64,000 nucleotides of DNA from Sandaracinus amylolyticus (GTDB lineage: Bacteria > Myxococcota_A > Polyangia > Polyangiales > Sandaracinaceae), in contig NZ_CP070225.1 in the NCBI RefSeq assembly GCF_021631985.1, forward strand, positions 2,790,001 to 2,854,000. The letters run 5' to 3'. This document shows, one piece after another, positions 4,497 to 56,682 of this stretch. Below the pieces are notes generated by a model. The model worked only from the letters and a program-made list of their open reading frames with translations, ran no database searches and was not told the origin of the DNA. The translations under genes were made by a program, and so were the position numbers. Every line of letters starts with the position of its first letter. The stretch's first letter is position 1.

Positions 4497-4592
4497 CCGA
4501 AGCCTCCCGAGCGTGCTCGTGCTCTGCGTCAGGAGAGCACGCTCCGGGGACGAAATCCAGTCGCGAACAAAAGTTCCGCTGTGACTATTGTC

Positions 4593-5528
4593 TCAACGGC
4601 ACCGCTGGATCCGGGGCTCGGTGCGCACCGCACAGCTCGGATCGCATCCCGCGACGAACGTCGCCTCGCCGCCGCACCCGGGAATCTCGGCGGCGGCCCA
4701 GCCGGCCGTGTGCTCGCAGGTGCCGCCCGACCGCGCACAACCGCCGGCGGCCGCGTGCTCGAGCGTGATCCGGCCGTCGCAGTCGAAGTCGAAGTCGAGC
4801 CCGGTGACGTGGCCCTGCATGCGCGTCGCGAAGAGCTCGGTCTGTCCGGCATGAGCGCGCACGTCGGAGTCGTCGCAGTCGAACGCGCTCTCCGTCGGCG
4901 CTCGGGTGATCCAGGTCGCGCTCGCGCCGTCGCAGCCGGTCGTGCTCGGATCGGGCGGCTCGCAACCGGTGTAGGTCGTCGCATCGCGCGGCGCGTGACC
5001 GTCGTCGTCGCAGTCGGCGAAGTAGACCGCGACGCCGTTCTCGTCGATCGCGAGGTCGCAGTCGTCGTCTCGCCCGTTGCACGTGTCCGTCGCGCCGGGG
5101 TGCACGTCGGGGTCGGAAGGCGCGCAGTCGTTGCAGTCGTCGGCGCCGTCGAGATCCGCGTCGGGCGCGCTCATCGCGCAGCCGCTCGTCGGGTCGCACG
5201 TGTCGAAGCTGCACGCGACACCGTCGAAGCATCCGAGCTGCATGCCGGGCACACACGCTTCGTCGATGCAGCGCTCGATGCCGGTGCACACGTCGTCGTC
5301 GGAGCAGTCGTCGTCGACGAGGCACTCGGGCGGCTCTTCGCCGGCATCGGGATCACCGCCGTCCGCGCCCGCGTCCTCGACGCCCGCGTCGTGCTCCGGC
5401 GGAGCCGCGTCGTGTGTCGCCGCATCGAGGAGCGAGCCAGCGTCACCCACGCTCGCGTCGTCGTCGTCGCCGCACGCGGGGAGCACGATCACGAGCAGCA
5501 GGATCGAGCACAGCGGGATCGAACGCAC
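4593..5528 (-). CDS. MopE-like lipoprotein (second copy of the design)
   Basis: 311 residues starting at a GTG, chosen because a clean lipoprotein signal (hydrophobic Leu/Ile/Val run ending Leu-Pro-Ala-Cys) follows directly; longer open frames upstream read through the divergent nucleotidyltransferase gene. The mature protein has an Asp/Ala/Gly linker, then Cys-rich segments including Cys-Asn-Gly-Arg-Asp-Asp-Asp-Cys-Asp and Asp-Leu-Asp-Gly-Ala-Asp-Asp-Cys-Asn, the MopE-type motif. The order of motifs parallels the protein at 1289-2263, including a shared C-terminal Cys block, so the two are paralogues. It is divergently arranged with the NDP-sugar gene at 5584 across 55 bases. Confidence 0.82.
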   Translation of the reverse strand: MRSIPLCSILLLVIVLPACGDDDDASVGDAGSLLDAATHDAAPPEHDAGVEDAGADGGDPDAGEEPPECLVDDDCSDDDVCTGIERCIDEACVPGMQLGCFDGVACSFDTCDPTSGCAMSAPDADLDGADDCNDCAPSDPDVHPGATDTCNGRDDDCDLAIDENGVAVYFADCDDDGHAPRDATTYTGCEPPDPSTTGCDGASATWITRAPTESAFDCDDSDVRAHAGQTELFATRMQGHVTGLDFDFDCDGRITLEHAAAGGCARSGGTCEHTAGWAAAEIPGCGGEATFVAGCDPSCAVRTEPRIQRCR

Positions 5529-5583
5529 TCCGACGACTGTACCCTCGAACGCGGCGCGCACGTATGTGATATCCGTTCGACGA

Positions 5584-6525
5584 ATGCGCGCGATGGTGTT
5601 CGCCGCGGGGCTCGGGACGCGCCTGCGGCCCATGACCGACGTGCTCCCCAAGCCCGTCGTGCCGCTCTTCCATCGTCCGCTGTGCTGGTTCGCGCTCGAC
5701 CATCTACGTCGCGCCGACGTCACGGACGTCGTGCTCAACACGCATCACCTCGCGGCGCGCGTCGAGGAGGCGGTCGCGAGCGCGCCGCGCATCGACGGGC
5801 TCACGGTGCGCTTCGCGCACGAGCCCACGTTGCTCGGGACCGGCGGCGGCGTGAAGCACGCGATCGGGCTGCAGTCGCGCGCGCTCGGGCGTGAGCTCGC
5901 GGACGACGACGTCGTGCTCGCGTTCAACGGCGACATCTCGTTCGCGCCGGACCTCCACGCCGCGATCGCGACCCATCGCGCGACGAACGCGATCGCCACG
6001 ATGATCGTGCGCGAGGATCCCGCCGCGGCGCGCTACGGCGCGATCGAGCTCGACGAGGAACGCGTGGTGCGTCGCATGCTCGCGACGCCCGACGGAACGC
6101 TGCGCGCGACGATGTTCACCGGCGTCCACGTGCTCTCCGGGCGCGCGCTGCGCGAGCTGCCCGACGAGGGATGCATCGTCCAGCGCGGCTATCTCCCGTG
6201 GCTCGCCCGCGGCGCGCGCATCGGCGCGCACGTGGAGCGCGCGGCATGGCGTGATCTCGGCACGCCGCGCGAGTACGTCGCGGCGCATCTCGACGTGATC
6301 CGGGGCGCGCTCGCGTGGCCGGGGATCGACCCGGCGCGCGATGCGGTGCACCCCAGCGCGAGCCTCGGGGCGCGCGTCGCGCTGCACGAGACGACGGTCG
6401 GCGCGGGGGCGCGCATCGAGGACGGCGTCACGCTCGAGCGCTGCGTCGTGTGGCCGGGCACCCGAGTGACCGAATCCGCGCGCGATCTGGTCCTGCTCGG
6501 CGCCCACCGCGTTTCCGCCGTGTAA
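5584..6525 (+). CDS. NDP-sugar (nucleotidyl) transferase with beta-helix tail
   Basis: 313 residues. The N-terminal pyrophosphorylase motif Ala-Ala-Gly-Leu-Gly-Thr-Arg-Leu-Arg-Pro is followed by Leu-Pro-Lys-Pro, and an Asn-Gly-Asp metal-binding motif lies near residue 120: the nucleotidyltransferase fold of sugar-1-phosphate guanylyl/uridylyl transferases. The last 60 residues look like left-handed beta-helix hexapeptides (Ala-Ser-Leu-Gly-Ala-Arg-Val, Thr-Val-Gly-Ala-Gly-Ala). The ATG at 5584 starts directly before the motif; no Shine-Dalgarno sequence is visible. The product is probably GDP-mannose or UDP-MurNAc, but the sequence does not separate the two. No other polysaccharide genes adjoin. 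Confidence 0.83.
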   Translation: MRAMVFAAGLGTRLRPMTDVLPKPVVPLFHRPLCWFALDHLRRADVTDVVLNTHHLAARVEEAVASAPRIDGLTVRFAHEPTLLGTGGGVKHAIGLQSRALGRELADDDVVLAFNGDISFAPDLHAAIATHRATNAIATMIVREDPAAARYGAIELDEERVVRRMLATPDGTLRATMFTGVHVLSGRALRELPDEGCIVQRGYLPWLARGARIGAHVERAAWRDLGTPREYVAAHLDVIRGALAWPGIDPARDAVHPSASLGARVALHETTVGAGARIEDGVTLERCVVWPGTRVTESARDLVLLGAHRVSAV

Positions 6526-6631
6526 CGAACGCACCCCCTGGTGGCGAATCCGTGAGCGATGGCAGTCTCTGTGGTTGCGTCGGAGTGGACGACCCCATTA
6601 GCGTCCGCCGACTCGATGCCGTGGGGGCTCA

Positions 6632-8548
6632 ATGCGTTCTTCACTTCTGTTCTCGTTCGTCTCGTGCTCGCTGATCGTGTCCGTGGGGTGCACCGAGCCA
6701 GTCGGTGGCGGAGGCCGTCCGCGTGACAGTGGGGTGCCGACGCCCGACGGGCAGGGGCCGACGCCGTGCACTGCCGGAGGCCCCTCGAGGATCTGCCTCG
6801 GGGCCGAGGAAGTGAGCTGCAACCCGGACGGCACGGAGTCCGGCCGCCGCAACTGCAGCACGACCGGCGGCACCTGCGCGCCCGAGCTGGGCTGCGTCGC
6901 GTGCTTGCCGAGCCGCGGCATGTGCGATGGCAACACGCTGCAGCGCTGCCGCGCCGACGGCTCGGGCTACGACGTCGTGGAGACGTGCGATGCGTCCGCC
7001 GGTCTCGTCTGCAACGCGACGACCGTGATGTGCAGCTCGCCGTGCGCCGACGCGGAGGCCGCCAACTCGTACATCGGGTGCGAGTACTGGCCCGTCACGA
7101 CGCTGAACTCGCAGGTCGCGCCCGACTTCCCGTTCGCCGTCGTCGTCGCGAACCCGCAGTCGAGCGCGGCGCAGGTGACCGTCACGCGCGGCACCGCGAC
7201 GGTGAGCACGGTGACCGTCGCGCCCGGCGCGGTGCAGACGATCGAGCTGCCCTGGGTCAACGACCTCAAGCAGCAGCTCGCGGCCGCGAGCCCGCCCGAG
7301 CCCTCGACGCTGCTCCGCGGCGGCGGCTACCGCCTGCGCTCGACGCTGCCGGTCACCGTCTATCAGTTCAACCCGCTGGAGTACCGCATCGCGCGTGACT
7401 GCGCGGGCGAGAGCATCCTCGAGCTCGACAACGAGTGCTTCTCGTTCTCCAACGACGCGTCGCTCCTGCTGCCCTCGCACGCGCTCAGCGGCAACTACCT
7501 CGTGACCTCGGTCGCGACGCGCTACATGCGCATCACGCCCTCGGGCGGCGCCGCGCAGGAGGCGCAGAGCCCCGGATTCCTCACGATCGTCGGTGCGTCG
7601 GACACCGCGACCGAGGTGACCATCACGTTCAGCGCGCACACCCGCGCGTCGTCGGACGGCTCGAGCGTGCAGGCGTTCGCGCCCGGTCAGACCGGGACGT
7701 TCACGCTCGGCGCGGGTGACGTGCTGCAGCTCGTCGCGTCGCGCCCCGAGACCTGCACGCCGACCAGCTCGGACACGCAGAGCTCGCTCTTCGGCAGCCG
7801 TCGGATCGACTACTGCGCGGTCGGTCCCGAGTACGATCTGACGGGCACCGAGATCCGCTCGACCGGACGGCTCGCGGTGTACGGCGGTCACAACTGCGCG
7901 TTCATGCCGGCGAACCGCTGGGCGTGCGACCATCTCGAGGAGGCGCTGTTCCCCGAGGAGGCGTGGGGCCGCGAGGCGATCGTCTCGATCACGCAGCCGC
8001 TGATGAACGAGCCGAACGTCGTTCGCATCGTCTCGGCGCGCGACGGGAACATGATCACGTTCGATCCCGCGTCGACGCACGCGGCCGTCACGCTGAACCG
8101 CGGCCAGACGATCGAGTTCGAAGCGCGTCAGAGCTTCCGCGTGTCGGGCACCGAGGCGATCAGCGTCGCGCAGTTCCTCGTCGGCCAGAACTACCCGGGC
8201 ATCAACTCGTCGATCGGCGACGTGGGCGATCCCTCGATGTCGCTCGCGATCCCGACCGATCAGTACCGCACCGAGTACACGTTCCTGGCGCCGAGCACGT
8301 ACGAGCGCAGCTTCGTGAACGTCACGGCGCCGATGGGCGCGACCGTGACGCTCGACGGCACGACCGTCCCCGGCTTCCTCCCGGTCGGCGGCACCGGCTT
8401 CGGCGTGGCGCGCGTCGAGATCACGGGCGGCGCGCACACGATCACGAGCTCGCAGGAGTTCGGCATCGTCGTGTACGGGTTCGGCCAGTACACGAGCTAC
8501 ATGTACCCGGGCGGCCTCGACCTCGAGTCGATCAACGAGCCGATCTGA
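6632..8548 (+). CDS. IgGFc-binding-like lipoprotein
   Basis: A 638-residue predicted lipoprotein (signal peptide with Val-Ser-Val-Gly-Cys). A Cys-rich region covers residues 45-135. The large C-terminal domain starts at Tyr-Ile-Gly-Cys-Glu-Tyr-Trp and runs through Phe-Pro-Phe-Ala-Val-Val-Val-Ala-Asn, with many Thr-Val-Thr and Gln-Phe strands; this resembles the IgGFc-binding N-terminal domain found in many myxobacterial surface proteins. The function in bacteria is unknown, with adhesion the usual guess. The gene stands alone and its 3' end faces the methyltransferase gene across 11 bases. Confidence 0.75.
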   Translation: MRSSLLFSFVSCSLIVSVGCTEPVGGGGRPRDSGVPTPDGQGPTPCTAGGPSRICLGAEEVSCNPDGTESGRRNCSTTGGTCAPELGCVACLPSRGMCDGNTLQRCRADGSGYDVVETCDASAGLVCNATTVMCSSPCADAEAANSYIGCEYWPVTTLNSQVAPDFPFAVVVANPQSSAAQVTVTRGTATVSTVTVAPGAVQTIELPWVNDLKQQLAAASPPEPSTLLRGGGYRLRSTLPVTVYQFNPLEYRIARDCAGESILELDNECFSFSNDASLLLPSHALSGNYLVTSVATRYMRITPSGGAAQEAQSPGFLTIVGASDTATEVTITFSAHTRASSDGSSVQAFAPGQTGTFTLGAGDVLQLVASRPETCTPTSSDTQSSLFGSRRIDYCAVGPEYDLTGTEIRSTGRLAVYGGHNCAFMPANRWACDHLEEALFPEEAWGREAIVSITQPLMNEPNVVRIVSARDGNMITFDPASTHAAVTLNRGQTIEFEARQSFRVSGTEAISVAQFLVGQNYPGINSSIGDVGDPSMSLAIPTDQYRTEYTFLAPSTYERSFVNVTAPMGATVTLDGTTVPGFLPVGGTGFGVARVEITGGAHTITSSQEFGIVVYGFGQYTSYMYPGGLDLESINEPI

Positions 8549-49657: not shown

Positions 49658-50812
49658 ATGCTTCGCACCGCGATCGAGAGAGTCCACCGTGCCCTCGAGG
49701 ACATCCGCGCCGGTCGGATGGTGATCCTCGTCGACGACGAGGACCGCGAGAACGAGGGCGACCTCGTGATGGCTGCGGAGAAGGTCACGCCCGAGGCGAT
49801 CAACTTCATGGCGAAGTGGGGCCGCGGCCTCATCTGCCTGACGATCACCGACGAGCACGTGCAGCAGCTCGATCTGCCGATGATGGTCGACGACAACCAG
49901 TCGCAGCGCTCGACCGCGTTCACCATCTCGATCGAGGCGCGCCACGGCGTGTCGACCGGCATCAGCGCGGCGGACCGCGCGCACACGATCAAGGTCGCGA
50001 TCGCCGAGGACGCGCGTCCTTCCGACATCGTGAGCCCCGGCCACGTCTTCCCGCTCAAGGCGCGCCCCGGCGGCGTGCTGCAGCGCACCGGTCACACCGA
50101 GGGCTCGGTCGATCTCGCGCACCTCGCGGGCTTCCGTCCTGCGGGCGTGATCTGCGAGATCATGAACGACGACGGCACGATGGCGCGCATGCCCGATCTC
50201 GTCGAATTCGCCGAGAAGCACGGGCTGCGCATCCTCTCGATCGCGGATCTGATCCAGTACCGCCTCGAGCACGAGCAGATGATCGAGCGGCGCCTCGACG
50301 GCGAGATCGCGCTGCCGAGCGGCAAGCAGTGGCGCGCGCACCTCTTCGTGCAGAAGCACGATCGGCGCGAGTTCCTCGCGCTCACGCTGGGCGAGATCGA
50401 CGAGACCCCGACGCTGGTGCGCATGCACACCGGCAGCGTGCTCGGCGACGTGTTCGACGTGCGCAGCCGCGGGCGCGTCGCGATCGACGACGTGGTCGCG
50501 CGCATCGAGGAGGAGGGGCGCGGCGTGATCGTGTTCATCCCGGGCCCGATCGATCTCGAGTCGGATCTCGCGCAGCGCCTCGGCAAGCAGGTGAAGCCGA
50601 AGCACATGGACAGCGGCGAGGTGCTCCGCGAGTACGGCCTCGGCGCGCAGGTGCTGCGGGCGATCGGGCTGCGTCGCATCCGCCTGCTGACGAACCGTCC
50701 GCGCCGCATCGCGGGCGTCGACGGCTACGGCCTCGAGGTCACCGAGCAGCTCGTGGTGAGCGAGGACGCCGCGCTCAGCGGCGAGATGGACGCGCCCGAG
50801 CTCAAGCACTGA
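49658..50812 (+). CDS. ribBX: DHBP synthase with GTP cyclohydrolase II-like domain lacking zinc ligands (RibBX type)
   Basis: 384 residues. Residues 1-205 are an intact DHBP synthase ([10 protein letters not shown], Arg-Thr-Gly-His-Thr-Glu-Gly-Ser). Residues 206-384 resemble GTP cyclohydrolase II (Gly-Leu-Gly-Ala-Gln-Val-Leu-Arg; Arg-Leu-Leu-Thr-Asn), but the three zinc Cys of the canonical enzyme are replaced, at about V261, S270 and G272, and the Gln-Glu-Gly-Arg-Gly-Ile segment is missing. A hybrid of this type, with an inactive second domain, has been described as RibBX. It can make 3,4-dihydroxy-butanone phosphate; GTP opening must be done by another RibA. AGACGAGG precedes the ATG. Confidence 0.9.
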
Positions 50813-50837
50813 GCTTCCACGCGTCGACGCACATGCA

Positions 50838-50876
50838 CGCGCGCTCGTGATCGTCCTCGGCGTGCACGAGCGCGCG
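50838..50876. other. 12-bp hairpin between ribBX and ribH
   Basis: Arms 50838-50849 and 50865-50876 match perfectly, with a 15-base loop. No T tract follows. It could slow transcription into ribH, protect an mRNA end, or terminate partly, making ribH and nusB semi-independent. Confidence 0.55.
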
Positions 50877-50907
50877 GCGTGCGTTAGACACGCGACCCGA
50901 GGGAGTG

Positions 50908-51396
50908 ATGGCTGACATCCTGGAGATCGAGGGGACGTTCGAGACGCCCCAGGGCGCGCGCATCGCGATCGTCGTGTCGCGATTCAATCACTTCATCACC
51001 GATCGACTCCTCGAGGGCGCGCTCGACGGCCTCCGCCGCCACGGCGTGCCGGACGCGAACGTCGTCGTCGCGCGCACGCCCGGCGCGTTCGAGCTCCCGG
51101 TCGCGGTGCGGCAGCTCGCGTCGAGCAAGAAGGTCGACGCCGTGATCGCGCTCGGCGCGGTCATCCGCGGCTCGACGCCGCACTTCGACTACGTCGCCGG
51201 CGAGGCCACCAAGGGCTGCGCGCAGGTGATGATGCAGACCGGCGTGCCCGTGATCTTCGGCGTGCTGACGACCGACACCATCGAGCAGGCGATCGAGCGC
51301 GCCGGCACGAAGGCGGGCAACAAGGGCTGGGAAGCGGCGCTGGGCGCGATCGAGATGATCAACCTCCGCCGCGCACTGGAGAAGGCCGGCTTCTGA
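50908..51396 (+). CDS. ribH: 6,7-dimethyl-8-ribityllumazine synthase
   Basis: 162 residues of the RibH fold: Val-Ser-Arg-Phe-Asn near residue 24, Pro-Gly-Ala-Phe-Glu-Leu-Pro, [13 protein letters not shown], and the catalytic His in that run. It condenses the RibB and RibD products. The ATG (after an in-frame GTG) follows GAGGGAG. Length matches the icosahedral type. NusB starts 32 bases after its stop. Confidence 0.95.
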
Positions 51397-51428
51397 GCGC
51401 GCACGCGCTCGGTCCGGGTCCGACGACG

Positions 51429-51857
51429 ATGAGCTCCACCGCGCGCACGGGCTCGAGGCGGAAGGGCCGCGAAGCGGCGCTCCAGATGCTCTATCAGATG
51501 GAAGCATCGGGAGTGCGCGCGGAGCAGGCCATCCACCTCTTCTGGGCCAACCTCGGCTCCTCTCGCGAGGGCGAGGACTTCGCGAACCGCATCGTGCGCG
51601 GCTGCGAGAGCGAGGGCGACAAGATCGACGAGATCATCCGCAAGGTGAGCCAGCACTGGCGGCTCGAGCGGATGACGCGCGTCGACCGCAACATCCTCCG
51701 CCTCGCGACGTTCGAGCTGATCGCGATGGAGGACATCCCTCGTCGCGTGACGCTCAACGAGGCGGTCGAGCTCGCGAAGCGCTACGGCAGCGATGGCAGT
51801 GCGGGCTTCGTGAACGGCGTGCTCGATCGCATCGCGAGCGATCTCGGCAAGGACTGA
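51429..51857 (+). CDS. nusB: Transcription antitermination factor NusB
   Basis: 142 residues, all-helical. Gly-Arg-Glu-Ala-Ala-Leu-Gln-Met-Leu-Tyr-Gln and Val-Asp-Arg-Asn-Ile-Leu-Arg-Leu-Ala-Thr-Phe-Glu-Leu are the NusB signatures, with Ile-Asn-like Arg-Val-Thr-Leu-Asn-Glu-Ala-Val-Glu-Leu-Ala-Lys and Phe-Val-Asn-Gly-Val-Leu. It binds NusE and BoxA RNA in rRNA antitermination. The placement after ribH is the common bacterial order. Confidence 0.96.
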   Translation: MSSTARTGSRRKGREAALQMLYQMEASGVRAEQAIHLFWANLGSSREGEDFANRIVRGCESEGDKIDEIIRKVSQHWRLERMTRVDRNILRLATFELIAMEDIPRRVTLNEAVELAKRYGSDGSAGFVNGVLDRIASDLGKD

Positions 51858-51863
51858 GCGAGC

Positions 51864-52394
51864 GTGGAGCTCCGGTTCGTCGCGCCCGATCTCCGCGCGC
51901 TCGACGGCCTGCGCTCCGAGGCGCTCGCGCTCCCGTTCTTCCAGGACGAGCGCCCGCTGCGCGGCGCGGCGGGGCTCGTCGACTGGCGCCTCTGCGGTCG
52001 TCTCTCGCGCCTCCTCGTGCGCGGCCGGGTGCGCGGCGCGCTGGGTGAGCGCGTGCTGGTGCCGGCGCGCCCGCGGCTCGCGTTCGAGAAGCTCTTCCTC
52101 TTCGGGCTCGGTCCGCGCGCGGCGTTCGACGAGACCGCGTTCGTCGCGTCGGTCGACGACGTGCTCGACACGCTCGAGAAGGCGCGCGCGCGCACCGCGG
52201 TGATCGCGCTGCCGGGACGCAGCCTCGAGCTCGTCGGCCCGGAGCGCGCGCTCGAGCTCTTCCTGTCCGCGGCGCGCGACCGCACCGAGCACGACGAGCT
52301 CACGCTGATCGAGCCGCTCGACGCGCAACGCTCCATGATCCCCGTGCTCGAACGGGCACGAAGGAAAGCCCGCGCCCTCGAAGGCGGAGCCTGA
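51864..52394 (+). CDS. Stand-alone M17 N-terminal-domain-like protein
   Basis: 176 residues from a GTG 7 bases after nusB. Phe-Gln-Asp-Glu-Arg-Pro-Leu-Arg-Gly-Ala-Ala-Gly-Leu-Val-Asp-Trp-Arg-Leu-Cys-Gly-Arg-Leu resembles the N-terminal (macro-like) domain of leucyl aminopeptidases, including Leu-Phe-Gly-Leu-Gly later. The peptidase domain is missing and no metal ligands are seen, so it is not a peptidase. It might bind an ADP-ribose-like ligand or act as a protein-interaction module; both are guesses. Confidence 0.65.
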   Translation: MELRFVAPDLRALDGLRSEALALPFFQDERPLRGAAGLVDWRLCGRLSRLLVRGRVRGALGERVLVPARPRLAFEKLFLFGLGPRAAFDETAFVASVDDVLDTLEKARARTAVIALPGRSLELVGPERALELFLSAARDRTEHDELTLIEPLDAQRSMIPVLERARRKARALEGGA

Positions 52395-52412
52395 CGCACC
52401 CGCGCCCCGTGC

Positions 52413-52426: not shown

Positions 52427-52945
52427 GTGCAGAAGCTCGGCTCGGGGATCGCGTTCGTCGATGCGATCGACCTCGCGCGCAAGCACGACGACACCAAGCT
52501 CGCCGAGCTCCTCGGCCCGGCGCAGCTCCTCGGCGCGCCGCCCACCGTCGAGGACGACGAGGACGAGTGGTCGTTCCAGACGCGCGCGATCCTGCGCCCA
52601 GAGCTCGGCGCGCGCCTAGGCCTGGAGCTCTCGCGCGCCTACGTGTTCCCGGTCCGCAAGCTGCGCTCGACCTTCGCCGACACCATCCTCGTCGGCCGCG
52701 CGAGCACCAGCGACGTGTTCGTCGACGACGCGAGCATCTCGAAGCTGCACGCGCGCATCCGGCGTCAGAGCGACGACGCGTGGACGATCGCCGACGCAGG
52801 CTCGACCAACGGCACCGCGATCGGCACACGCGCGATCAACGGCGAGGAGTCGTCGCTCCCGTACGGCACGCGCTTGCGGATCGGGAAGTGGTCGTTCCGC
52901 TTCGAGCGCCTCGATGGCACGCTCGCGATCCTGCGGAACGGATGA
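52427..52945 (+). CDS. FHA domain protein
   Basis: 172 residues. A short N-terminal helix region (1-70) precedes a C-terminal FHA domain: Val-Gly-Arg-Ala-Ser-Thr-Ser-Asp, Ile-Ser-Lys-Leu-His-Ala, and Gly-Ser-Thr-Asn-Gly-Thr. The phosphothreonine-binding residues are all there. It lacks any output domain, so it probably acts as an adaptor for a kinase substrate. The next gene starts within its stop (ATGA). Confidence 0.88.
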   Translation: MQKLGSGIAFVDAIDLARKHDDTKLAELLGPAQLLGAPPTVEDDEDEWSFQTRAILRPELGARLGLELSRAYVFPVRKLRSTFADTILVGRASTSDVFVDDASISKLHARIRRQSDDAWTIADAGSTNGTAIGTRAINGEESSLPYGTRLRIGKWSFRFERLDGTLAILRNG

Positions 52946-53712
52946 GCATCATCGAGCCACGACCGGCGATCCTCGTGTTGGCGGCGCTCGCGACGGCATG
53001 CGGCAGCGGGCTCGCGTCGCACGCGGATTCGGTGCGCGATCGGGCGCTGCGCGCGGAGGTCTCGACCGCGCTTCGAACGATCGAGCGGCTGCGCCGAGAC
53101 GAATGGCTCGCGCGCATCGCGAGCGGTGCGTGCAGCGCGCAGTCCGATTCGAGCGCATGCATCGACGCGCTCGACGCGCTCGCTTCGGTGCAGGCACTGC
53201 GCTCGCGGATCGAGCGTGAGCGCGACGACGCTGGCGCGCTCGACGCGTTCCGCCTCGCGGTCGCCGACGGCACTTCGATCGACGACGAGTGCACCGGAAG
53301 CGATGCGCTGCGATCGATCGCGGCGGCCGTCGTGCGGCACGTCGCCGAGCTCTCGGTCGCACCTCCGCGCGAGATCGAGGTTCCCGAACCGATGGCGGAC
53401 TGCCGCATCGCGACGCTCGGAGGTCCCGTCCTGCTCACGAGCGAGCCGCGCGCGCAGGCGCCGATGCGCGTCTCCAGCGTGATCGTCCTCCGCGGCGACG
53501 TGCTGCCCGGCGTCTCGTCGAAGACAGCGACGTACGACTTCTCCGATGATCTGCCCGCGGTCTGGTTCGACGCGCCGCGCGCCGGCCCGTGGAGCGACGC
53601 GCCCGCGGTGCAGGTCGAGCTCTGGCAGGGCACGTCGATCGACGTCCACCTCGTCGTGCGCGCCGCCGATGGTTGGCGCGTCATCGACTTCGCGCACGTC
53701 GGCGACACGTAG
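52942..53712 (+). CDS. Predicted lipoprotein, coupled to an FHA gene
   Basis: 256 residues; signal peptide with lipobox Ala-Thr-Ala-Cys. The mature part is helical in the first 100 residues (with two or three Cys) and beta-rich later (Val-Trp-Phe-Asp-Ala-Pro; Val-Glu-Leu-Trp-Gln-Gly-Thr). No family recognised. Translation is coupled to the FHA protein, whose cellular compartment differs, so a direct interaction is unlikely. Confidence 0.72.
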   Translation: MSIIEPRPAILVLAALATACGSGLASHADSVRDRALRAEVSTALRTIERLRRDEWLARIASGACSAQSDSSACIDALDALASVQALRSRIERERDDAGALDAFRLAVADGTSIDDECTGSDALRSIAAAVVRHVAELSVAPPREIEVPEPMADCRIATLGGPVLLTSEPRAQAPMRVSSVIVLRGDVLPGVSSKTATYDFSDDLPAVWFDAPRAGPWSDAPAVQVELWQGTSIDVHLVVRAADGWRVIDFAHVGDT

Positions 53713-53758: not shown

Positions 53759-55342
53759 ATGCGTGCGACACGTCTCTCCGCGATCCTCGTCCTCCTCGCG
53801 CTCGGCGCGTGTGGCGGCGCAAGCCTGCGCACCGCGCGTCCATCGGAGCCCGAGCCGAACCCCGCGCCGCCGCTCCTGCCGTGGCAGGCGCAACGCCCCG
53901 GCGTGCCGACGATCGAGTCGCCGCTCGTCGTGCTCGCGGGCGGCACCGTGCTCACCGCGACCGGTCGCACCATCGACGACGGCGTCGTGATCATGGAGGA
54001 CGGCGTGATCCGCGCGGTCGGTCCGCGCAGCGAGGTCGCGATCCCCGAGGGCGCCGAGGTGATCGACGTCTCGGGTCGCTTCGTGACGCCGGGCATCATC
54101 GACACCCACTCGCACATGGGCGTGTACCCGGTGCCCGAGGCGCAGGCGCACGAGGACGGCAACGAAGCGACCGGACCGATCACGCCGCACGTGCGCGCGT
54201 CGGACTCGTTCTGGCCGCAGGATCCCGCGCTCGCGCGCGCGCTCGCCGCGGGCATCACGACGATCCAGGTGCTGCCCGGCTCCGCGAACCTGATCGGCGG
54301 CGCGGGCGAGACGTACAGGCTGCACCTCGGCCGCACGTCGAGCGAGATGGAGCTGCCCGGCGCACCCGACACGATGAAGATGGCGTGCGGCGAGAACCCG
54401 AAGCGCGTGTACGGCGGGCAGCACCAGGAGCCCTCGACCCGCATGGGCAACGTCGCGGGCTATCGACGCGCGTTCCAGGAAGCGATCGAGTACGGCCGCT
54501 CGTGGAGCGACTGGCAGGAGACGTATCGCCTCTGGTCGATCCGCCAGGAGCGATGGGAGGGCTGGCAGAGCGCGCAGATGCAGGACGTCGACGAAGCCGC
54601 TGCGGTGCCCGGCGCAGGAGGGGAGGGCGCGGGCGACGATCCCGGTGCGCCCGAGGAGCACCCCGAAGATCCCGGACCGGCGCCCGCACCGCCCACGCGC
54701 GACTTCGGTCACGAGCTCCTGCTCGGCGCGATCGAGGGCCGCGTGCTCGTGCAGATGCACTGCTACCGCGCCGACGAGATGGCGCGGATGATCGAGATCG
54801 CGCGCGAGTTCGGCTTCCGCATCCGCGGCTTCCACCACGCGGTCGAGGCCTACAAGATCCGCGACCTGCTGACGGCCGAGGAGATCTCGATCTCCACCTG
54901 GGCCGACTGGTGGGGCTTCAAGCTCGAGGCGTTCGACGCGATCCCCGAGAACCTCGCGCTGCTCACCGAGGCGGGAACCCGCGCGGTGCTGCACTCGGAC
55001 TCGCCGATGTTGATCCAGCGGCTCAACCAGGAAGCCGGCAAGGCGATGGCCGCGGGGCGTCGCGCCGGGGTCGACATCACCGAGGACCAGGCGCTGCGGT
55101 GGATCACCACGAACGCCGCGTGGACCCTCGGCATCCACGAGATGACGGGCACGCTCGAGCCCGGGCGCATGGCCGACGTCGTCGTGTGGTCGGCGAGCCC
55201 GTTCTCGGTCTACGCGCACGCCGAGCTCGTGTTCGTCGACGGCCTCCGCGAGTACGACCGCGCGCGCGACGGCGCGTCGCGCGACAGCGACTTCGAGCTC
55301 GGCCTCGATCTCCAGCTCGAGCAGGACGGAGGTGCGCGATGA
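53759..55342 (+). CDS. Amidohydrolase-family lipoprotein (metal site intact)
   Basis: 527 residues; lipobox Leu-Gly-Ala-Cys. The amidohydrolase barrel begins with Val-Thr-Pro-Gly-Ile-Ile-Asp-Thr-His-Ser-His, giving the first two metal His. Further ligands are visible in Gln-Met-His-Cys-Tyr-Arg-Ala-Asp, Phe-His-His-Ala-Val-Glu-Ala-Tyr and Leu-His-Ser-Asp-Ser-Pro. A Glu/Pro/Ala/Asp-rich insertion of about 40 residues (near 275-315) sits inside the barrel. Substrate not known; imidazolonepropionase- or dipeptidase-like hydrolysis of an exported compound is plausible. Coupled to a second amidohydrolase gene by an ATGA overlap. Confidence 0.88.
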   Translation: MRATRLSAILVLLALGACGGASLRTARPSEPEPNPAPPLLPWQAQRPGVPTIESPLVVLAGGTVLTATGRTIDDGVVIMEDGVIRAVGPRSEVAIPEGAEVIDVSGRFVTPGIIDTHSHMGVYPVPEAQAHEDGNEATGPITPHVRASDSFWPQDPALARALAAGITTIQVLPGSANLIGGAGETYRLHLGRTSSEMELPGAPDTMKMACGENPKRVYGGQHQEPSTRMGNVAGYRRAFQEAIEYGRSWSDWQETYRLWSIRQERWEGWQSAQMQDVDEAAAVPGAGGEGAGDDPGAPEEHPEDPGPAPAPPTRDFGHELLLGAIEGRVLVQMHCYRADEMARMIEIAREFGFRIRGFHHAVEAYKIRDLLTAEEISISTWADWWGFKLEAFDAIPENLALLTEAGTRAVLHSDSPMLIQRLNQEAGKAMAAGRRAGVDITEDQALRWITTNAAWTLGIHEMTGTLEPGRMADVVVWSASPFSVYAHAELVFVDGLREYDRARDGASRDSDFELGLDLQLEQDGGAR

Positions 55343-56682
55343 GACTGCGCGCGATGAGGAGGTGCGCGCTCGCGGTGATCGCGCTGCTCGCGATCACGCT
55401 CCCCACGTCGGCGCAGCGCCGGCCGACCACCACCGAGCCGCCGATCGTGATCACCGGCGCGACGGTGCGTCCCGGCAACGGCCCGCCGATCGAGAACGCG
55501 ACCGTCATCGTGCGCGGCGATCGCCTCGAGGCGGTCGGCGCGGGCCTCGCTGCGCCCGCGGGCGCGACGGTGATCGACGCGACCGGCGCGGTGATCACGC
55601 CGGGCTTGGTCGCGACGATGACCGCGCTCGGGCTCGAAGAGATCGAGCTCGAGCGTGCGTCGCGCGACACCGGCCCCGAGGGCGACGACGCCGACGCGAT
55701 CCGCGCCGCGTTCTCCGCGGCCGACGGATACAACCCGCTCTCGACGTTGATCCCGGTGGCGCGGCTCGGTGGGATCACGAGCGTGACGAGCGTGCCCGAG
55801 GGCGGGCTCGTCCCGGGCACGAGCGCATGGGCCGATCTTCTCGGCGCCTCGCCCACGGTGGGCACCGACGCAGTGCTCACGCCGGTGCTCGCGCTCCACG
55901 TGAGCCTGAACGACGAGGGCATCGACGCCGCGGGTGGCGCGCGCTCGAGCGCGATCACCCGCCTCCGCGAGCTGCTCGACGATGCGCGCCTCTACGCGCG
56001 CCAGCGCACCGCGTTCGATCGCGGCGACTTCCGCGACACCGACGTGAGCCGCCTCGATCTCGAGCGTGTCGGCGAGGCGCTCGCGGGCCGCATCCCCGTG
56101 GTGATCAAGGTGTCTCGCGCGGTCGACATCGTCCGCACCATCGCGCTGGGGCGCGAGTACGGCCTGCGCATCGTGCTCGCCGGCGTCGAAGAAGGCTGGA
56201 TGGTCGCGCCGCAGATCGCGGCGGCGAACGTGCCGGTGATCGTGCAGGCGATGACGAACCTGCCCGAGCGCTTCTCGCGCTTGCACGCGCGCTACGACAA
56301 CGCCGCGCTCCTCGCGCGCGCCGGCGTGCGCGTGATGCTGATGTCGCCGGGCGCGTGGGACGCGCGCAACCTGCGTCAGGAGGCGGGCAACGCGGTCGCG
56401 TGGGGCATGGATCCCGATGCCGCGCTCGCCGCGATCACGTCGCTGCCCGCCGAGGTCTTCGGGATGCGCGACCACGGTGTGATCGCCGCGGGCCGCCGCG
56501 CGAACCTGGTCGTGTGGAGCGGTGATCCCTTCGAGACGACCAGCGCGCCGACGCACGTGATCGTCGCGGGCCGTGACCTGCCCCTTCGCTCCCGCCAGAC
56601 GCTGCTGCTCGAGCGCTACCGCTCGCTCGACTCGGTGCCCCGCGGCTGGACCGGAACGGTCGCTCGCGACCGCTCGGAGTGA
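55339..56682 (+). CDS. Amidohydrolase-like protein without metal ligands
   Basis: 447 residues with an N-terminal signal peptide (cleavage near Thr-Ser-Ala-Gln) and the same barrel order as the upstream enzyme. Aligned by eye, each metal position is lost: the Asp-Thr-His-Ser-His motif reads Ala-Thr-Met-Thr-Ala (residues 92-96), the next His position reads Val in Ile-Lys-Val-Ser-Arg-Ala, the third reads Gly in Leu-Ala-Gly-Val-Glu-Glu, and the Asp reads as Pro/Gly. The rest, including Gly-Arg-Arg-Ala-Asn-Leu-Val-Val-Trp near the end, is preserved, so the fold is under selection. It may be a non-catalytic partner of the first protein. Confidence 0.87.
   Translation: MRLRAMRRCALAVIALLAITLPTSAQRRPTTTEPPIVITGATVRPGNGPPIENATVIVRGDRLEAVGAGLAAPAGATVIDATGAVITPGLVATMTALGLEEIELERASRDTGPEGDDADAIRAAFSAADGYNPLSTLIPVARLGGITSVTSVPEGGLVPGTSAWADLLGASPTVGTDAVLTPVLALHVSLNDEGIDAAGGARSSAITRLRELLDDARLYARQRTAFDRGDFRDTDVSRLDLERVGEALAGRIPVVIKVSRAVDIVRTIALGREYGLRIVLAGVEEGWMVAPQIAAANVPVIVQAMTNLPERFSRLHARYDNAALLARAGVRVMLMSPGAWDARNLRQEAGNAVAWGMDPDAALAAITSLPAEVFGMRDHGVIAAGRRANLVVWSGDPFETTSAPTHVIVAGRDLPLRSRQTLLLERYRSLDSVPRGWTGTVARDRSE

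Follow-up and report, generated by a model that had tools for sequence, protein, structure and literature searches.

Why would a bacterium keep, directly behind the gene of an intact amidohydrolase and overlapping with it, the gene of a sister protein from which the metal ligands have disappeared? This question is raised by two genes of Sandaracinus amylolyticus in the 64,000-nucleotide stretch of DNA analysed here (the window), for which an earlier note had proposed an enzyme together with a pseudo-enzyme partner. The first gene product, P1, and its metal-free paralogue, P2, are listed in Table 1 together with variants and neighbours from other loci.

Table 1. Coordinates of the gene pair in the window and of related features elsewhere (L numbers denote loci).
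Feature	Position	Strand	Description and basis
P1, amidohydrolase	53759..55342	+	527 aa; nearest PDB entry 3ooq; lipobox-like LGAC (Cys18); basis: translation, Pfam, ligand columns, pattern
P2, metal-free paralogue	55339..56682	+	447 aa; signal-peptide-like N-terminus to about SAQ (by eye); basis: translation, Pfam, columns
ATGA, P2 start codon over P1 stop codon	55339..55342	+	basis: sequence; putative translational coupling
Three-domain form	L235:2924-6028, L247:1958-5104, L248:1325-4324		N-domain keeps 0/5 ligands in 3/3
Second pair type	L243:3084-5701, L158:2959-5528, L163:2986-5603		most ligands lost in partner
POT-family peptide transporter	L245:5784-7430; L134, L169, L231, L238, L240, L242, L246

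Two paralogues and the fate of their metal ligands

Two BLASTP alignments connect P1 and P2 (54/173 and 44/141 identical residues, E 7e-15 and 1e-8), and in a search of their own genome the best match of each elsewhere is the other. The paralogy claimed in the earlier note is borne out. Both exceed the Pfam gathering scores of Amidohydro_1 and Amidohydro_3: P1 reaches 52.8 bits against a cut-off of 29.7 and 45.6 bits against one of 25, and P2 reaches 38.3 bits against 29.7 and 38.4 bits against 25. The best solved relative of both in a PDB search, by a wide margin, is 3ooq, an 'amidohydrolase' that we take to be from Thermotoga maritima; it matches P1 with E 4e-67 (single sequence) and 4e-106 (profile) and P2 with E 4e-27 and 1e-67, and a literature search on this PDB code returned nothing. 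AlphaFold2 gave single-chain models of low confidence, with a mean pLDDT of 42.9 for P1 aligned with one relative and of 46.8 for P2 aligned with two. Assignment to a known substrate was rejected: among the 25 top matches listed, out of 69 and out of 43, NCBIfam models stayed far under their cut-offs, including the curated equivalogs for imidazolonepropionase (hutI; P1 58.7 vs a cut-off of 298, P2 37.3) and Xaa-Pro dipeptidase (XaaProDiPepCaul; P1 58 vs a cut-off of 500, P2 39.4).

Metal binding in the amidohydrolase superfamily follows the pattern HxH, Lys, His, His, Asp, which in the P1 of the window corresponds to H117, H119, K207, H334, H360 and D414, K207 being presumably the strand-4 lysine of two-metal amidohydrolases. 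All six are visible in the alignment with 3ooq. The matching columns of the window P2 hold M94, A96, H187, K257, G282 and P337, that is, 0/6 ligands, so that the previously reported replacement of every ligand position stands and the list is extended by K207.

This division holds well beyond the window, in relatives from its own phylum and from a second one, presumably Pseudomonadota. The lysine of the K207 column is found in 111/111 P1 rows, and the other five ligands, scored on one joint alignment of 227 rows, are all kept in 73/75 P1 rows of the window-phylum group (among which L011, recorded as Aeromonadales, was tallied), in 36/36 rows of the second phylum and in 4/4 of the Gram-positive relatives considered below. 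The complete set occurs in the 109/111 P1 rows that span every column; the remaining two (L136 and L146) are contig-end pieces of 294 and 299 aa, which keep four of the six, the columns they span. Among the P2 rows, on the other hand, 0, 1 and 2 of the five ligands are left in 39, 32 and 2 of 73 rows in the window-phylum group and in 20, 12 and 4 of 36 rows in the second phylum; when K207 is included, 0, 1 and 2 of six are kept in 57, 46 and 6 of the 109 rows. The two histidines of HxH are never found together (0/109). The loss of ligands, whose conservation the earlier note had left to be surveyed, hence extends to 109 P2 rows from two phyla. Loci dropped before these counts were those with a broken P1 frame (L105), a contig end after P1 (L110), broken frames (L171), a second gene scoring closer to P1 and therefore no P2 row (L158, L163), P1 only (L159, L162) or P2 only (L160, L161, L012).

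It could be argued that P2 has enzymatic activity of its own, either through a metal site that has been rebuilt or through a chemistry that needs no metal, and the distribution of histidines gives this view some substance: His occupies the column of P2 position 340 in 80/109 P2 rows, the K207 column in 45/109 and is retained at H334 in 30/109, and because of these counts a changed or rearranged site is conceivable in some P2 lineages. None of these histidines is universal, however; the window P2 has W340, H187 and K257 at the three columns, its histidines are restricted to positions 187, 316, 379 and 406, and its single cysteine, C9, lies inside the N-terminal signal-like segment. An alternative metal site in the window P2 is unsupported by this inventory, in agreement with the metal-free character first assigned to the protein. 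In addition, the H360 column has become Gly in 62/73 and 34/36 P2 rows of the two groups (96/109), an exception among the former ligand positions, most of which drift. An active P2 is therefore regarded as very improbable.

Gene order, joint retention and selection

The pair is arranged uniformly, with P1 first and both genes on the same strand in 106/106 pairs. The ATGA overlap first noticed in the window has a counterpart in 88/106 pairs, in which a start codon for P2 is available exactly 4 bases ahead of where the P1 stop ends; since this position was tried first, the figure counts possible rather than proven starts. Other P2 starts, between -14 and +15, apply to 16/106 pairs, and in the last two, both from one genus, P1 and P2 form one continuous gene (L098, 959 aa; L099, 944 aa). 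The overlap is not due to chance, as 88 of the 106 pairs share a possible 4-base overlap and two more are fused. Overlapping genes may nevertheless be co-regulated without their products binding each other, and co-translation is not essential here, because 4/4 inspected genomes of genus g88 retain both genes but have them on different contigs (L159-L162, L256-L259). The two P2 proteins aligned from this genus keep 1/5 (L160) and 2/5 (L161) ligands.

Retention was surveyed in 144 genomes of the window's order, with P1 called at E 1e-40 or better and P2 at 1e-10. P1 was found in 31 of them and P2 was matched in the same 31; in one of these (G090), whose contig stops 140 bases past P1, the sequence matched as P2 is P1 itself, which leaves a true P2 in 30/31. 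Of 282 genomes sampled from the phylum, 122 have P1, 129 a P2 match and 121 both. The ratio 121/122 is an upper bound, because a P2 match may be P1 itself, and firmer evidence comes from the loci inspected individually. In the sole P1 genome lacking a P2 match (G364) the contig terminates within P1, so that in this survey of sister genomes, as called for by the earlier note, loss of P2 with P1 retained was not seen. Four of the eight genomes with P2 only were inspected: in one a truncated P1 adjoins P2 (L251), in two the contig breaks off on the upstream side, within or at the P2-type gene, and leaves no P1 beside it (L252, L254), and in one a single relative obtains nearly the same score as P1 and as P2 (L253).

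The disappearance of the catalytic ligands from P2 would be expected of a functionless, decaying duplicate. P2 is, however, retained with P1 across two phyla, and in nine locus comparisons its NG86 dN/dS ranges from 0.14 to 0.45, much like that of P1 (0.10 to 0.44); between the window and L092 the values are 0.033/0.237 for P2 and 0.033/0.194 for P1. These are NG86 figures, the YN00 estimate having failed in 6/9 comparisons. P2 is under purifying selection similar to that on P1, and its being a mere relic is scarcely credible.

Spread beyond the phylum, domain variants and history

The pair, which the earlier note considered with regard to myxobacteria, is not confined to them, given its occurrence in a second phylum and on a Hymenobacter plasmid. 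In the second phylum, that of the genome harbouring L011 (G383), a search with the P2 profile at E 1e-20 hits 36/299 genomes, 35/36 of them at least twice, and the pair is present in every one of 34 stretches taken from 33 of these 36 genomes (G623 and G673 were left out). Plasmids carry it as well: that of Qipengyuania citrea (L169) has a coupled pair at 4526-5905 and 5902-7311, a plasmid record of Novosphingobium resinovorum includes the pair, and in Hymenobacter volaticus (Bacteroidota) a plasmid encodes an apparent three-domain form with broken frames. Scans of viral collections yielded no relative. In Acetoanaerobium, Nonomuraea, Cytobacillus and Monoglobus the region of 8.6 to 9.2 kb surrounding the match contains a single relative in each case, and these four Gram-positive relatives look like single genes.

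Two further arrangements were encountered. The three-domain form of the second phylum comprises a protein of 999 to 1048 aa, in which a metal-free domain is fused before the P1 domain, and behind it a P2 encoded separately; L235, L247 and L248 accordingly have two dead domains per active one. In the second pair type (L243, L158, L163) the partner is nearer to P1 or outside the main P2 group and keeps 0/6 (L158) or 1/6 (L163) ligands. The dead partner in L243 branches apart from the main P2 group, so that ligands may have been lost on more than one occasion.

In a tree of 88 rows, made by a quick method with SH-aLRT as its only support measure and an arbitrary root, 45 rows (P1s, single genes and 3ooq) form one group (SH-aLRT 99) and 35/40 P2 rows, from both phyla, a second (SH-aLRT 96), while the P2 rows of L164, L235, L243, L247 and L248 and three N-domains are weakly placed outside both. 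Within the first group, 3ooq joins the four Gram-positive relatives (SH-aLRT 98). As the main P2 group spans both phyla, either the split between P1 and P2 would be older than the phyla or the pair would have moved as a unit. The P2 branches are longer than those of P1, P2 changing faster. Eleven columns, several of them adjoining ligands, show a conservation of 93% or more across 110 P1 rows and carry other residues in each of the four single genes (P126, L172, C335, Y336, H359, Y365, K366, D383, W384, G386 and D393).

Export, neighbours and the proposed partnership

The P1 of the window apparently resembles a lipoprotein and its P2 begins with a signal-like segment, which suggests export of both. 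A lipobox-like pattern occurs in 70/111 P1 rows and 11/109 P2 rows, as a pattern count rather than a signal-peptide prediction and with uncertain start codons. Clustering of neighbourhoods revealed no universal neighbour, the two largest clusters being, by eye, mostly frames that overlap the pair. A POT-family transporter gene is present in 8/121 stretches, seven from the second phylum and one (L134) from that of the window; Pfam PTR2 was tested for the copy at L245. In Qipengyuania an FKBP gene lies downstream of the pair. Among the genes inspected in the window neither a POT transporter nor an FKBP neighbour was found. Small peptides as the substrate are a guess, and a reasonable one because of the POT transporter and FKBP neighbours.

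Upstream of the pair in the window, a small FHA-domain protein is encoded at 52427-52942, and for the frame between it and the pair (52945-53709) Pfam gave nothing at E 0.001. Further upstream (50758-52400), genes that presumably correspond to ribH and nusB, which they resemble, recur ahead of the pair in 8 to 9 loci, the window included (L092-L100), and this recurrence suggests a fixed chromosomal site of the pair within the family.

Another explanation is that P2 is a separate periplasmic ligand-binding protein that scavenges or senses the same substrate without binding P1 and is co-expressed for balance only. The suggested export of both proteins and the peptide transporter in 8 of the 121 stretches would suit such a role, as would the conserved set that P2 has of its own, e.g. 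R142, R260, D263, E285, W287, R419 and Q420, the last two being, together with Y427, conserved residues of its C-terminal part. Fusions of P1 with P2, and of the N-domain with P1, nevertheless join metal-free and catalytic domains in one chain, and we consider this explanation unlikely.

P2 is probably not junk but a functioning subunit, because the pair is kept in distant bacteria and is sometimes fused. We favour as likely a hetero-oligomer of an exported P1 enzyme and a metal-free P2 subunit, a reading that draws support from the fusions, the close coupling of the genes, their retention together and the probable export of both proteins. P1 would be an exported lipoprotein amidohydrolase, probably anchored in the membrane, and P2 would be exported through its signal peptide; the ATGA overlap would let the two be translated in step, and their assembly would take place in the periplasm. 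P1 would perform the metal-dependent chemistry, P2 taking the place of one subunit of a putative ancestral homo-oligomer and supplying P1 with stability, a completed pocket or substrate selection, comparable to the inactive partners discussed below. Weighing against it, the drift of P2 at most former ligand positions, apart from the Gly at H360, and its faster change fit a scaffold better than a conserved pocket. The enzyme and pseudo-enzyme pattern originally proposed is supported in that neither a replacement metal site in the P2 of the window nor a loss of P2 beside a retained P1 came to light, the physical partnership itself being a matter of interpretation.

Metal-free members of this fold have precedents. 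CRMPs (dihydropyrimidinase-related proteins) have the amidohydrolase fold without a working metal site; they belong to another, eukaryotic subfamily and appear among the weak PDB matches. In Pseudomonas aeruginosa, the pseudo-dihydroorotase (pDHO) of aspartate transcarbamoylase (ATCase) is reported to be an inactive dihydroorotase homologue that is obligatory for ATCase activity (PMC7053772). An inactive homologue of amidohydrolase fold is kept there as a subunit, as proposed for P2. The partner of pDHO, a transcarbamoylase, is not its paralogue, whereas P2 stands beside an active enzyme that is its own paralogue, the two being apparently exported. For the trypanosome prozymes of AdoMetDC and DHS, the opening passages of the sources describe an active enzyme with a dead paralogue, the complex of the two being the form that is active; for DHS the gain is 3000-fold (PMC6221367, PMC5201418, PMC3663545). 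Retention of a dead paralogue alongside the active enzyme, as these passages portray prozyme-like complexes, is likewise found for P1 and P2, although the prozymes are other enzymes from a eukaryote. In titles and abstract beginnings of open-licence papers, no description was found of an amidohydrolase that is exported and coupled to a dead paralogue of its own.

More tentatively, and with rather less than even confidence, the pair may belong to a class of exported two-component hydrolases that is old, widespread among Gram-negative bacteria and so far undescribed. In this class a catalytic amidohydrolase would be accompanied by a single metal-free sister (by two where three domains are present), and the dead sister would complete the active site or fix specificity. 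If so, the single-gene relatives would stand for the ancestral homo-oligomer and a natural series would be available for a pseudoenzyme taking over half an enzyme. In practical terms, P2 is easily miscounted as an enzyme, since in the only intact annotated pair found (Qipengyuania) both genes are labelled amidohydrolases, and an assay of P1 alone could overlook an activity that requires P2. Single genes, coupled pairs, fused pairs and the three-domain form make up a series in which the evolution of an obligatory pseudoenzyme would become directly testable, and this in harmless bacteria.
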